NCBI RefSeq assembly: GCF_011064595.1
Contig: NZ_JAALJI010000011.1
Location: 62,001-126,000 of the forward strand
DNA length: 64,000 nt
Source of the DNA: Paludisphaera soli
GTDB taxonomy: Bacteria > Planctomycetota > Planctomycetia > Isosphaerales > Isosphaeraceae
Reading direction: 5' to 3'
Shown here: positions 12,659 through 50,900 of the stretch, piece by piece
Layout of the letters: each line of letters opens with the position of its first letter
Numbering within the stretch: the first letter of the stretch is position 1
Program-made: the position numbers and the translations under genes
Notes under the pieces: model-generated
Told to the model about the DNA's origin: nothing
Databases searched by the model: none
The model's input: only the letters and a program-made list of their open reading frames with translations

Positions 12659-13471
12659 ATGACCCTCCATGATTGCGGCGTCGCCCTGATGGTGCTATCG
12701 GTTTCCGGCCTGACGGCCGTCGCGGGCGAGCCGCTCGATGTGGCCTTCGTCTCGCGGCATGACGGCGGCGAGCAGCGCTACGTGGTCGTGACGCCCGACG
12801 GCTTCCAACCGGGGGCGCGGGCCTCGATCCTGATCGCGCTGCACGGCCACGGGTCGGACCGCTGGCAGTTCGTGCGGGACGCGCGCGACGAATGCCGGGC
12901 CGCCCGCGACGCCGCCGCGAGGCGGGGGATGATCTACATCTCGCCGGACTATCGCGCGAAGACCTCGTGGATGGGCCCGGCGGCCGAGGCCGACGTCGTA
13001 CAGATCGTCGAGGACCTGAAGCGGCGATTCCGGGTCGACAAGGTCGTGGTCTGCGGCGGGTCGATGGGGGGGACGGCGGCCCTGACCTTCGCCGCGCTGC
13101 ATCCCGACCTCGTCGACGGCGTCGTGGCGATGAACGGCACCGCGAACCTCGTGGAGTTCGCCGGCTTCCCGGACGCGATCGCGGTCTCGTTCGGCGGCTC
13201 GAAGCGCGACCGGCTCGACGAGTACCGCAAGCGGTCCGCCGAACTGGCCGCCGATCGCCTGACGATGCCGATCGCGCTGACGACCGGCGGCCGCGACGCG
13301 ATCGTCCCCGCCGACAGCGTCCTGCGCCTCGCCCGGAAGTTGCGGGAGAGCAACCCCGCGTCGCTATCGATCCACAGGCCCGAAGGGGGCCACGCGACCG
13401 ACTACGCCGACGCGACCGAGGCGTTCGAGTTCGTCCTGAGCCGGGTGCTCGACGCCGAGTACCGGCCGTAA
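12659..13471 (+). CDS. Secreted alpha/beta hydrolase (prolyl oligopeptidase/esterase-like)
   Basis: 270 aa. A signal peptide (VALMVLSVSGLTAVAG) leads into an alpha/beta hydrolase fold. The oxyanion-hole region LIALHGHGSDRWQF, nucleophile elbow VVCGGSMGGTAAL (Ser135), acid GGRDAIVP (Asp213) and base EGGHATDY (His245) are all present and correctly spaced. Close to the poly(3-hydroxybutyrate) depolymerase-like and S9 peptidase-like esterases frequent in planctomycetes; substrate unknown. The ATG at 12659 was chosen because it begins the signal peptide; upstream codons are Pro/Arg-rich noise. It is followed after 5 bp by the 10-bp duplicated flank of the MITE-like element. Confidence 0.85.
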   Translation: MTLHDCGVALMVLSVSGLTAVAGEPLDVAFVSRHDGGEQRYVVVTPDGFQPGARASILIALHGHGSDRWQFVRDARDECRAARDAAARRGMIYISPDYRAKTSWMGPAAEADVVQIVEDLKRRFRVDKVVVCGGSMGGTAALTFAALHPDLVDGVVAMNGTANLVEFAGFPDAIAVSFGGSKRDRLDEYRKRSAELAADRLTMPIALTTGGRDAIVPADSVLRLARKLRESNPASLSIHRPEGGHATDYADATEAFEFVLSRVLDAEYRP

Positions 13472-13486
13472 GGGGCCTCCCGAAGG

Positions 13487-13685
13487 AGACTCCTCACTCA
13501 TCTCCACCAGGATGCGAGAGAAGATCTTCGGGTGCCACAGGTTCGGAGAAACCGTGGACCGGCCGGGGATCTCGGCGAAGGCTCGGGAGCGGCCCGACGC
13601 CGATCCACGGGTTCGGAGAACCCGTGGCACCCGAGTTCGGCCTTCTCAAACGGTCCCTTTGTCGGTGGTGTTGAGTGAGGAGTAT
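13487..13685. mobile_element. MITE-like element (199 bp, TIRs plus 10-bp target duplication)
   Basis: The ends are inverted repeats: 13487-13508 and the complement of 13664-13685 agree at 19 of 22 positions, sharing ACTCCTCACTCA and CCACC. Both ends are flanked by the identical 10-mer CTCCCGAAGG (13477-13486 and 13686-13695), as expected of a target-site duplication. Inside are two hairpin units with the same GTTCGGAGAA core: the right one is a perfect stem CCACGGGTT/AACCCGTGG (13605-13627), and an outer pair TCGGGTGCCAC/GTGGCACCCGA joins both units. No coding capacity, so it would need a transposase in trans. It lies between convergent genes and could also act as a terminator. Confidence 0.75.
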
Positions 13686-13702
13686 CTCCCGAAGGTCTCG
13701 AT

Positions 13703-16700
13703 TCACCCCGCCGGCCAGCGGTAGCGGCTCGCGCCGTTGGGCTTGAGGCGCATCCAGCGGCCGTCGAAGGTGGGGGCGACGCGGGGGGTGGAGCCCCCCT
13801 CGGCGCGGAACTCGGCGGGCTTGCCGAAGCGGGCGGTGTCGAGCTGCAGGGAAAACGCCCGGTCGCGCGGGACGACGTGGGCGACCCATTCCGAGCCCAC
13901 CTTGCGGATCGAGACGCCGCCGTCGGTCCTCACCGGGCCGAAATCGACGATCTTGCCCCCCAGGTTCAGGTTGACACGATGGATCGCGGCGCGGTCGGCG
14001 GCGGGGGCCTTCTCGGGGATGAACCGGAGGGCCTTGCCGCCTTCGGAGACGCGGAGGACCCCCAGGAGGTTGCGGCCGGATGAGTCGGTGGGGCCTTCCA
14101 GGGCCACCCGACCCGCGCCGGGGACGTGGAAGCCGATCGTCCAGGCGTAGTCGCCGTCGGGGAGGTCGTCGGGGATGCGGATGGCGTGGGGGCCGTCGTC
14201 GACGGTCGTGCCGGGCTTCCACTGGGTCGTCGGCCTCGCCAGGCCGTGGTCCTGCTGGAAGAGGATCTCGGAGTCGTCGCCGCCCACCTTGCCGAAGTGG
14301 ACGAAGGCGTGGTAGTCCTCCTTCAAGGGCTCGCGGACCTTCCAGGTGTACGAGGCGGCGAAGGTCCGGGGCCCGGTCTGGCGGAAGGCGACGCCCGGCT
14401 GGACGCGGCGGACGCCCGAGACGTCCCAGTCGGCCGCCGATCGCGCGTTGGCGAAGAACGAGTCCGGCGTCTCCACGCAGTCGGTCACGATCCCGTTGCG
14501 GAGCGTCGTCCCGGCCGTCAGCCCCGGGGCGCGGGCGAACCAGCCGAAGCGGGGAAGCTCCACCCCGTCGACCTGGAGCGGCTCGGCCGACTGGTTCGCG
14601 AAGACGGTCAGGCCGCCGTCGTACCGCACGCGGACGCGATTCCAGGCGTCGGGCGTGGAGCCCCCCGCGCGAATCACGGCCGAGGCGTCCTCCCATCGAC
14701 CGTCTTGCTCGTACTGGATCTGGGTGACGGGGGCCGTCGCCGAGCGGCTCGTCACCGGCCGCGTCAGGTTGGATTCGAGCCAGGCCAGGGGGACCGACGC
14801 CCAGGCCTCGCCGCTGAGGAAGCCGGCGTGGCCGAAGGCGATCTCCTGCATCCGGTACTGGTCGAGCACGGCGATCGGCGGCAAGGCCCCGCGCGGCGCG
14901 CGGGCCCTGTCATACCAGCGATCGTAATAGCCCATGCCGTGGTTGAGCTGGAGCGGGTGGATCTTCAGGAGGTCGAAGTCGACGAACAGGGGGGCGTCGA
15001 GGCCCCCTTCGCCGGGCCACCCCGAGCCGAACTGGGCCTCGACGCCGTCGAGCAGGCCGCTCCAGTACCAGTGGTGGTTCCCCTCGCCGAAGACCGGCCC
15101 GCCGTGGGTCTCGCGGAGGAAGTTCCAGGTCTCGCGATGGGCCTGCCGCACCCGCCGGAACGTCCCCGCGCCGTCGAGCCCCGCCTGCTGGTCGACGTGG
15201 AACCACGGGGGGACCGACGAGTTCACGTCGAGGAAGCCGGCCTCCGTGTCGTACCGGCGGTGGATCTCGGGCGACTGGGTTTTCGCTAGGTCGAGCATCG
15301 CCGTGGGCTTGATCGCGAACGACTGGATCTTGTTGCCGGGGTGGAACCAGGCGTTCTGCCGCTTGCCTTCCGAGTCGACCGCGATGTGCGTCTCGTCGAA
15401 CCCCTCGAAGTTCGGGTAGTAGTCGACGTAGTTCTCGTGCAGCGCGATCAGGTAGCCCAGGCGTCGGCCCGTCGCCCTGAGGGCCCGCATGCCGGCCTCG
15501 CCCCCTTTGTCCTCGGCGGCCGGATAGTGGGCCGGCAGGCCGTTGTCGTAGCCGTCGCGCTGCCAGTCGTGGATGATGACCGCCAGGCGTTCCAGGCCGG
15601 CGTCGTGCAGGGCCTCCAGCTTCCTGGCGATGTCGGCGTAGCGGCCTCCCCAGACATCGAGCACGACTCGATCGGCCAGGTCCTTGATGTGGGGCGAGGG
15701 CGGGTTCGGGATGTTGGGCAGGACCTCGTCGACGTTCCAGGCGGCCGAGTAGAGGAACCGTTCGCTCGGCGCGATCCGGGAGCCGTCGGTGAGCGCCTGG
15801 TAGACGGCGCGGGCGGCGTCGTGTCGCGAGGCCGCGGAGGTCGTCCAATCGAGCTGGCTGGAGACGAACAGGTCCTCGGCCGGCAGGTAGGAGACCTTGT
15901 TGTCGTAGTACGGCGTCGGCACGTCGCGGCGGGAGGCGACGGGCCCCCAGGAGCCGGCGTCGATCTGCTCGGCGACGGGCCGGTCGAGGCTCACGTCGAG
16001 CGCCAGGCTCCGGCCGGCGAGGGAGGCCTTCACGCGGAGCGTGGCGGGCTCGCCGTCGACCTCGAACGTGCGGACGAGGGCGGGGCCGTCGGCCGACTCG
16101 TCCCACCGGGCGTCGAGCGGCCGCGCGGGGCCGGTCCAGACGATTCGCGCGGTGGTCGCGAGCGGGACGCGGGCGGCGGGCGAGCCCTTGCGGTCGGCCT
16201 CCAGGACGAGCCCCCCCAGGACGTCCGGATCGCTCGCGTTCGAGGCTTCGGCGCCGGCCTCGCGGGCGGTCGCCGGGAGCGTCCAGCGGTAGGCGAACGA
16301 GCCGTAGTCGTCGACGGAGCGGAGGACGAAGGCGTCGCCGTCGCGGCGGATCTCGACCTTCGCGGGCGAGGCGGCCGGCGGGGCCAGCCCCTTATCCGGC
16401 CTCGAAGCCAGGCTCCGGAAGGAGACCGGAGGCGGGGCGGGGTGCGAGGCCGGGGCCGGCCGGAAGCCGTCCAGGACGATCCGGCGGCAGCCCCAGAGGC
16501 CGAAGTCGAAGCTGGAATCCCCCTTGGGGCCGCAGTCGACCTCGAACCGGAGGACGACGACCCGTCCCGCCTCGGCCGTCAGGTCGAACGCGAAGGGCTT
16601 CCAGGCGGCGTCGGCGCGCAACTCGTCGAGCAGCGGCTCGCCGTCGGCGAGGACGCGGAACCGGACGCCGTCGGACTTGCCGACGCCGTCCTCGCGGAGG

Positions 16701-47780: not shown

Positions 47781-47914
47781 ACCCGACCTCGCCGCCGCGG
47801 GCTCGCGCCCCCTCGGCCGTCGATTCTGGTAAGATCGGGAGGGCGGCCGCTAGCGGCCGGGGCCGGCGCGAGGCCGGCCCGGCGGGCGCCTCCTCTCGGG
47901 ATGAGATCGACGGC

Positions 47915-50900
47915 ATGAGCGCATCGTACATGGGGGCGCCCGCGTCCGCGACGGACGACGGGGAGGGGGCGTGGATCGCGGCGCTGGACCCCCGCCGGCT
48001 GGGGCCCATCCGCGGCGAGCTGCTGGGCGGCGAACGCCTGGACCGGCTCGCCCGGGCGCTCGCCCAGGCCGCCCCGCCGACCCGGCGACGCGCCGGCAGC
48101 CCGCTCCTGCGGCGGTTCGCCGACAACGGCAAGGTCCTGGAGAAGGTCCACGCCCGGATCGTCTCCGGCGACGAGCACGCGCGCGGGATCGACGTGGAGT
48201 GGCTGCTGGACAACTTCCACATCGTCGACGAGGTGCTGAAGGAAGTCCGCCGCGACATGCCCCACGGCTACGACGCCGTCCTCCCCAAGCTGGCCGACAC
48301 CCCCCTGAAGGGCTACCCCCGCGCCTACGCGATCGCCGTCGCCCTGGCGGCTCACACCGACAGCGAGTTCGACGAGGCGCGGATCGACCGGTTCCTGGTC
48401 GCCTTCCAGGCGAAGGCCGGGCTGACGATCGGCGAGATCTGGGCGCTGCCGACGATGTTCCGCCTGGTCCTGCTGGAGAACCTCCGGCGGCTGGCCGAGG
48501 AGATGGTCTGGTCGTGGGAGGAGCGGCGGCGGGCCGACGCCTGGCTCGCCGCGCCCGAGGACGCCCGGCCCGACCTGGGGGAGCCGTCGTGGCCGTTCGT
48601 CGCCCGGCTCATGCAGGCGTCCCGGCCCTCGACGTCGTCGGCCCCCTCGCCGAAGGCCGTGCGCGAACGGCTGGAGGCGCGCGGGGTGGACGTGGACGCG
48701 GTCGTCGAGCGGGAGAACCACCGCCAGGCGTCCAGCCAGATCACGGTCGGCAACTGCGTGGTCGGCCTGCGGCTGCTCGCGGCCGTCGACTGGAACGCCT
48801 TCTTCGAGCAGCACAGCCAGGTCCAGGCGATCCTCCTGCAGGACCCCTCGGGCGCCTACGGCCAGCAGGACTTCCCCAGCTGCGACCGCTGCCGGAAGGT
48901 GGTCGAGCAGGTGGCGCGGGGGGCGAAGGCCGACGAACTGGCCGTCGCCCGCCGGGCCGTCGAGCTGGCCGCCGCCGCCGACCCGGCCGACGCCCGCCGC
49001 CGGCACGTCGGCTACTGGCTCCTCGACGACGGCCTGCCGACCCTCCGCGCCGGCTTCCCCTACCGCGGGCCCGTGGGCGAGCGGGTGGTGGAGGCGATGC
49101 GCGCCCGCCCGAGCGTCGCGTACTTCGGCCTGATCGTCGCCGTCTGGTTCGTCGTGGCGTCCGCGTGCGTCTGGGGCCTCGGCTTCGGCGTCGGCTCGCT
49201 CCTCGACGCCCGGCTGCTCGGCGTGCTGGCGCTCCTGGCGCTCCCCGTCGGCGAGGTCGCCGTCGGCTTCATCAACCACGCCTTGACGATCTTCCTGCCC
49301 CCCAAGGTGCTCTCCAAGCTGGAGTTCAAGAAGGGGATCCCGGACGAGCACCGCACGTTCGTCGTCATCCCGACGATGCTCGTCCGCGCGCACCACGCCG
49401 AGGGCCTGCTGGAGCGGCTGGAGATCCATTACCTCTCCAATCCCGACCCGAACCTCCGGTTCGCGCTCTTGACCGACTTCGCCGACGCCCCGAGCGAGCG
49501 CATGCCCGACGACCAGGCGCTGATCGACGACGCCCTGGCCCGCGTCCGGGCCCTCAACGCGCGGTACGCCTCGGCGACGGGGGGCGAGGACCTGTTCTTC
49601 CTGTTCCACCGGCGCCGGCTCTGGAACCCGTCGCAGGGCGCCTGGATGGGCTGGGAGCGCAAGCGCGGGAAGCTCTCGGAGTTCAACCGGATGCTGTCCG
49701 GCGGCCCGAAGGGGAGCTACGAGGTCTTCAGCGCGGACCCGGCCTCGCTCCCCCGCTTCCGGTTCGTGATCACGCTGGACTCCGACACCCAGATGCCCCG
49801 CGACACGGCCGGGAGGCTCGTGGGGGCGATCGCGCACCCGCTGAACCGGCCCCGGTTCGATCCCGAGACGGGCCGCGTGCTGGAGGGCTACGGCGTGCTC
49901 CAGCCCCGGGTGAACTTCCACCTGACGGCGGCCACGCACTCGTACTTCGCCCGGCTGCTGGCGTCGGGGGGCGGGATCGACCCGTACTCCACGGCCGCGT
50001 CGGACTCGTACATGGACCTGTACGGCATCGGCAGCTTCACGGGCAAGGGGGTGTACGAGCTCGACGTCTTCGAGCGCGCCACCGGCGACGTCTTCCCCGA
50101 GAACCGGATCCTCAGCCACGACCTGATCGAGGGCAACTTCGCCCGCTGCGGCCTGCTGAGCGACACCGAGGTCTTCGACGACTTCCCGGCGCGATACCAC
50201 GCCTACGCCCGCCGCGAGCACCGCTGGATCCGCGGCGACTGGCAGCTCCTGCCGTGGCTGGGCCCGAAGGTCCCGCTCCCCCACGGCGGGGCCCGGCCCA
50301 ACCCGCTGCCGATCCTCGAGCGCTGGAAGCTGCTGGACAACCTGCGGCGCAGCCTGACGGCCCCGGCGCTCGTGCTGATGCTGGCGCTGGGCTGGACGGT
50401 CATGCCGGGCTCGCCCTGGGTCTGGTCGGCCGTGGCGCTCCTGGTGCTGGCGCAGCCGGTGCTCAAGTGGCTGACGGCGTCGACGGTCGGCGTGCTGCGG
50501 TCGTGGTCGATCGGGCCGTTCCGGGGCTGGAAGGAGAACCTGACGTCGATGGGGGGCCAGGCGCTGCTGTCGCTGGCGTTCCTGCCCGACCAGGCGCGGT
50601 CGGCGATCGACGCGATCGTGCGGACGCTGTACCGCCAGTTCGTCAGCCGCGAGCGGATGCTGGAGTGGGAGACCGCCGCGTCGACCGAGCAGCGGCTGGG
50701 AGGGGGCCTGCGCGACTTCGCTCGCTCGATGTGGCAGGCTTCGGCGGTCGCGCTCTTGATCCTGGCCGCGGTCGCCTGGCTGCGGCCTTCGTCGCTCTGG
50801 GTCGCTTCGCCGTTCCTGCTGGCATGGCTGCTCTCGCCGCTGGTCGCCTACCTGATCAGCCGCCCGCTGCCGTCGACCGAGATCCCGCTGGGCGCGGCCG

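Follow-up and report, generated by a model that had tools for sequence, protein, structure and literature searches.

MITEs that carry an internal REP are already known. QMITE2 of Coxiella burnetii, which measures 150-190 bp, has an internal REP, TIRs that are 23-29 bp long and direct repeats whose length varies between 7 and 11 bp, and its short copies resemble bare REPs (PMC5896051). REP palindromes in inverted order have been defined as REPINs (PMC3116915), and RAYTs (TnpAREP, class 2) are defined by an HUH and a Y---NP motif (PMC6006769). REPINs are thought to depend on a cognate RAYT. Here we analysed a stretch of 64,000 nucleotides of planctomycete DNA (the window) and describe an element in which a REPIN is very probably nested in a MITE of an ISL3-type insertion sequence (IS), forming a composite, non-autonomous unit that would in principle be open to two unrelated transposition systems and in which the REPIN would ride as cargo of a DDE-type MITE.

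The element occupies the gap between two convergent ORFs, one of 326 aa with its stop at 13471 and one of 1191 aa with its stop at 13703, and GTTCGGAGAA is confined to the element within the window. ORFs that cross it use frames or strands other than those of both flanking genes, and on inspection we agree with an earlier note on this DNA that it encodes nothing. A search of the element against Rfam gave no match. Its predicted fold is strong, at -122.7 kcal/mol compared with -89.2 +/- 5.5 in shuffled sequences (z = -6.1). The element is not the only copy: about 40 relatives with significant similarity are present in the genome to which the window belongs (G000; 7.97 Mb, a draft assembly in 197 contigs), a number that rules out chance, and in aligned full copies the sequence starts with GA[C/G]ACTCCTCACTCAAC and finishes with its inverse.

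The earlier note had delimited a 199-bp element at 13487-13685, flanked by a 10-bp target duplication, and the 10-mer CTCCCGAAGG is indeed present at both 13477-13486 and 13686-13695. We compared the flanks of 46 two-ended copies from G000, three sister species (G003, G004 and G005) and genus g13, and used mispaired flanks, the left one of a given copy set against the right one of another, as the control. Flank agreement averaged 5.9 out of 8 positions, compared with 2.3 out of 8 in the mispaired controls; at least 6 of the 8 positions matched in 32 of the 46 copies but in only 2.6% of controls, and the 8-bp duplication was perfect in 10 copies. When different duplication lengths were assumed, the matching fraction was 0.36 for 7 bp, 0.74 for 8 bp and 0.40 for 9 bp. 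With the borders fixed by copy comparison, this peak at 8 bp identifies TCCCGAAG, the inner part of the 10-mer, as the target duplication of the window copy; the outermost letters of the 10-mer correspond to the terminal G or C of the element and to a flank base that matches by chance. The element itself is thus real, but its borders had to be redrawn to the termini GAGACTCC...GGAGTATC at 13486 and 13686 (Table 1).

Table 1. Coordinates of the composite element and its parts in the window
Feature	Position	Strand	Basis
Left target-site duplication, TCCCGAAG	13478..13485		sequence and 46-copy flank comparison
Complete composite element (201 bp), REPIN within an ISL3-type MITE shell	13486..13686		about 40 related copies in G000
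Left TIR, family consensus GACACTCCTCACTCAACTCCACC	13486..13508	+	inverted-pair detection; same TIR type on autonomous ISs
Left inner shell arm, TIR to REPIN	13509..13529		conserved among shell copies of G000 and G004
REPIN, two inverted REPs with 47-bp spacer, 103 bp	13530..13632		also found shell-free and beside the RAYT gene
REP 1, head GGGTG and hairpin CCACAGGTTC-GGA-GAAACCGTGG	13530..13557	+	hairpin detection, REP unit comparison
REP 2, inverted, head GGGTG (CACCC on +) and hairpin CCACGGGTTC-TCC-GAACCCGTGG	13605..13632	-	hairpin detection, REP unit comparison
Right inner shell arm	13633..13663		conserved among shell copies of G000 and G004
Right TIR, inverted	13664..13686	-	inverted-pair detection
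Right target-site duplication, TCCCGAAG	13687..13694		sequence and 46-copy flank comparison

A clean orthologous site that lacks the element and has the duplicated sequence once was not found. One candidate, the flank of L094 (a copy in G004), shows synteny to window positions 47824-49301 on one side only and hence does not represent such a site. Flank comparison between the two genomes also showed that the two flanks of one G000 copy (L014) adjoin two different copies in G004 (L097 and L089 were compared), and that one of these two has, on its other side, a flank matching a further G000 copy, L007. This exchange of flanks indicates that recombination between copies of the element has rearranged the genome. 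We also noted a second dispersed repeat, GCGCCGAACGAAGCCAATTTCCGG..., of about 115 bp and with a hairpin of its own, at 85 places in G000 (for example L068:231-249, L066:286-304 and L007 around 1387 and 1707), which often occurs in direct pairs and often directly beside element copies (L005, L007, L010, L019, L020, L023 and L028).

The terminal inverted repeats recognised earlier are confirmed as an imperfect pair of 23 nt that is 87% complementary. Around the REPIN, these TIRs and the inner arms form an outer shell that is short, non-coding and dispersed in many copies, and the 8-bp duplication across the 46 two-ended copies makes 'MITE' a fitting term for it. We searched 45 genomes of the family for the TIR, and one match in G005 lay at the edge of a contig, next to the terminal part of a protein. 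Using this protein fragment as the query, we arrived at a nearly complete IS at G005:C20, which has the TIR GAGACTCCTCACTTAAATCCACC and encodes a 440-aa protein whose stop codon falls within the other TIR; the contig breaks off at this point. In Pfam, the protein matches DDE_Tnp_ISL3 with 49.5 bits (curated cut-off 23), while its best NCBIfam match, ISL3, reaches 58 bits and stays below the cut-off of 180, and we therefore refer to it as ISL3-type and not as a firm member of ISL3. Homologs of the protein were found in 17 of the 45 genomes and extend to other genera, and the homologous ISs of G037, G038 and G040 carry TIRs of the same type and perfect 8-bp duplications (CGGATTTC, GCAATTTC, AAAAAATG, ACAAATTC and AAAAAGAC). 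The earlier note expected a transposase elsewhere in the genome to have moved the element and proposed a search for an IS with matching ends. Such an IS exists in sister genomes but was not found in the host genome itself: G000 gave no match to the ISL3-type transposase, although an IS present in several copies might escape notice in so fragmented a draft (197 contigs), and in G004 the IS protein is reduced to a 31-aa remnant. The MITE and the IS have the TIR alone in common. Judged by sequence comparison, the ISs of relatives, which have the same type of TIR and 8-bp duplications, identify the shell as an ISL3-type MITE, and the IS to which it would belong was not found in the present assembly.

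Inside the shell, two hairpins at 13535-13557 and 13605-13627, noted before as related, are 91% alike and represent two inverted REP palindromes separated by a spacer, that is, a REPIN. The exact palindrome occurs 43 times in G000. In a comparison of 106 REP units from G000 and G004, each position of the GGGTG head was kept in 92-104 units and the stems were nearly invariant, whereas the 3-nt loop was hypervariable (GGA in 25, TCC in 22, CGC in 14 and CCC in 12 units). The first and third base of the loop, which corresponds to 13545-13547 and 13615-13617 in the window, are almost never complementary. A GTAG (or GT[AG]G) tag was not found 5' of the hairpin; its place is taken by the GGGTG head, which we infer acts as the guide.

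A RAYT gene is present in the same genome at G000:C154:170682-171260. It encodes a Y1 transposase of 194 aa that matches NCBIfam REP_Tyr_transpos with 97.6 bits (cut-off 80), has E. coli TnpArep (4er8) as the nearest solved chain (E 1.6e-5) and contains the motifs EHVH and YIHLNP, consistent with the RAYT definition given above. The gene is bordered on both sides by palindromes of the same REP type as those of the window element, and these REPs lack any shell arms. Two further RAYT genes in G000, at L031:1438-2028 and L253 (C1:210209, C143:26449), do not have these palindromes alongside. Within the genus, five of six genomes contain a RAYT match, and G004 is the only one without.

The distribution of shell arms differs between G000 and G004. 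Using a profile of the inner arms, we found that two-REP cores with no, one or two shell arms number 10, 12 and 15 in G000, compared with 0, 2 and 16 in G004 (Fisher p = 0.021 for cores without arms and 0.0011 for cores with fewer than two arms, values that are optimistic because the copies are related). A count of 14 shell-free cores in G000, obtained from the TIR alone, was discarded as an overestimate, since decayed copies still retain inner arms. Shell-free REPINs could still partly be shell copies whose arms have decayed. However, L011, a bare core, shares 96% core identity with the window copy and shows no trace of arms, which argues against simple decay.

Shells of the same kind enclose other contents in related genomes. 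The exact G000 palindrome is absent from G003, where we found five TIR matches of the same kind. These shells contain REPs or REPINs, some of them decayed, whose hairpin is CATGGCCACGC-TTG-CGTGGCCATG, and their REP, given as GGGTGCCATGGCCACGC-TTG-CGTGGCCATG, is the same as that beside the RAYT of G003, which is 54% identical to the G000 RAYT and is flanked by REPINs of this sequence. The REPIN position within the shell differs between G003 and G000, which favours separate entry, with rearrangement as a possible alternative. One G003 shell (L239, on G003:C30) is 383 bp long, and its REPIN is accompanied by a repeat of the GGCCACGGATGGACACTGATGAACAC type that occurs in direct and inverted form. 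In G005, the shells (L241, L240, L237 and L133) hold a different REP-like inverted pair, GGTGGCCCGGCCGGGC, a 12-mer that we did not find near either RAYT locus of that genome, so that the match between shell REP and RAYT is shown for two species only. L133 is apparently interrupted by a further insertion. In genus g13, the shells (L128 and L127) carry a third kind of content, the inverted repeat CCCGAAGCGCCAGCGAGGG.

These observations led us to weigh the nested arrangement against simpler ones. The nested arrangement is supported by the copy number, the TIRs with 8-bp duplications, the IS of relatives that has the same ends, the RAYT flanked by the same REPs, the shell-free REPINs and the G003 shells with the REP of their own RAYT. 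If the element were a plain MITE of an ISL3-type IS, the hairpins would be its own filling and the bare cores truncated MITEs. Consistent with this, many copies are one-armed or have decayed arms, bare and shelled cores are intermingled in the core tree (which has too few columns for good resolution), and Coxiella REPs have been interpreted as truncated QMITE2 (PMC5896051). We nevertheless consider this improbable, since the RAYT gene is bordered by the same palindromes without shell arms, L011 is nearly identical to the window copy yet armless, and the G003 shell encloses another REP that again belongs to the local RAYT. The original description as a MITE-like element accordingly holds for the outer shell, with its TIRs, clean duplication and multiple copies, but not for the inner hairpins, which form a REPIN with a RAYT of its own.

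The opposite simplification, a single RAYT-driven element in which the REPIN has long arms and the TIRs are a mere wider hairpin, could draw on the RAYT and REPs in the genome and on some RAYT-type genes elsewhere that have long flanking TIRs (PMC3733652). It appears very unlikely, however, given that the TIRs equal those of DDE ISs, that the shell surrounds other contents in another genus and that the RAYT copies have no arms. Single-strand Y1 transposition (IS200/IS605) is not known to make 8-bp target duplications, so that the 46-copy test contradicts a purely RAYT-driven origin. We give as little credence to an intrinsic bidirectional terminator retained between the convergent genes. The strong fold and the position between convergent stops would suit such a role, which had been suggested before, but neither strand contains a stem followed by a T run, and the element belongs to a dispersed multi-copy family with target duplications. 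A secondary effect of the element on transcript ends is possible.

For the nested element, we propose that an ISL3-type transposase acting in trans would have moved the whole 201-bp unit to 13486 by double-strand cut-and-paste, and that this insertion would have generated the 8-bp duplication, of which the pattern is observed and the catalysis presumed. The insertion was probably made while an active ISL3-type element was present or passing through. Separately, the RAYT would spread the bare 103-bp REPIN, with the folded single strand as its likely substrate, as suggested by PMC8266576 and by the REPs that flank the RAYT gene. It is also conceivable, though we regard this as rather doubtful, that the shell serves as a standing REPIN vehicle and docking site, which the current REPIN of a lineage enters and which the ISL3-type transposase then spreads, such that REPINs persist and multiply even without a RAYT, as in G004. 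If this were true, REPIN populations would not depend on their own RAYT alone. The REPIN as cargo of a MITE, the G003 shells with a REPIN fitted to the RAYT of that species, and G004, with its REPINs almost all in shells and no detectable RAYT, together provide a natural test of whether REPINs need the RAYT to persist. More generally, the element illustrates a way in which short repeats may be carried along through bacterial genomes, and it serves as a warning that short palindromes recorded as REPs may owe their spread to an unrelated transposase.

A search of titles and abstracts for ISL3 and MITE returned nothing relevant, and no true match to a nested MITE/REPIN was found among open-licence papers. 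With ISL3 family ISs and their MITEs, the system described here shares the DDE_Tnp_ISL3 domain, TIRs of about 23 bp and the 8-bp target duplication; it differs in that the IS represents a divergent planctomycete branch and that the MITE has only its TIRs from the IS and carries a REPIN. In TIRtrons, or TIR-flanked RAYTs (PMC3733652), RAYT-like genes likewise share a genome with TIR repeats, but the TIRs here belong to a DDE insertion sequence and not to the RAYT. The inverted REP pair with a spacer, its dispersal and the REP-flanked RAYT are shared with the REPIN/RAYT systems of Bertels and Rainey 2011 (PMC3116915), from which our system is set apart by the head GGGTG in place of GTAG and by the enclosure of about half of the REPINs in a DDE-type MITE shell. 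The closest likeness is to QMITE2, which also is a MITE enclosing a REP and is strikingly similar in size and duplications. There, the REP is GTAG-tagged and no RAYT is named in the text searched of PMC5896051, whereas the element described here carries a double REP matched to an identified RAYT of its genome, an IS with the same ends has been identified as its ISL3-type partner, and the same shell recurs in a sister species around another REP. Relative to the open-licence papers searched, this partner, this pairing and this swap of REPs between sister species within the same shell are what is new here.
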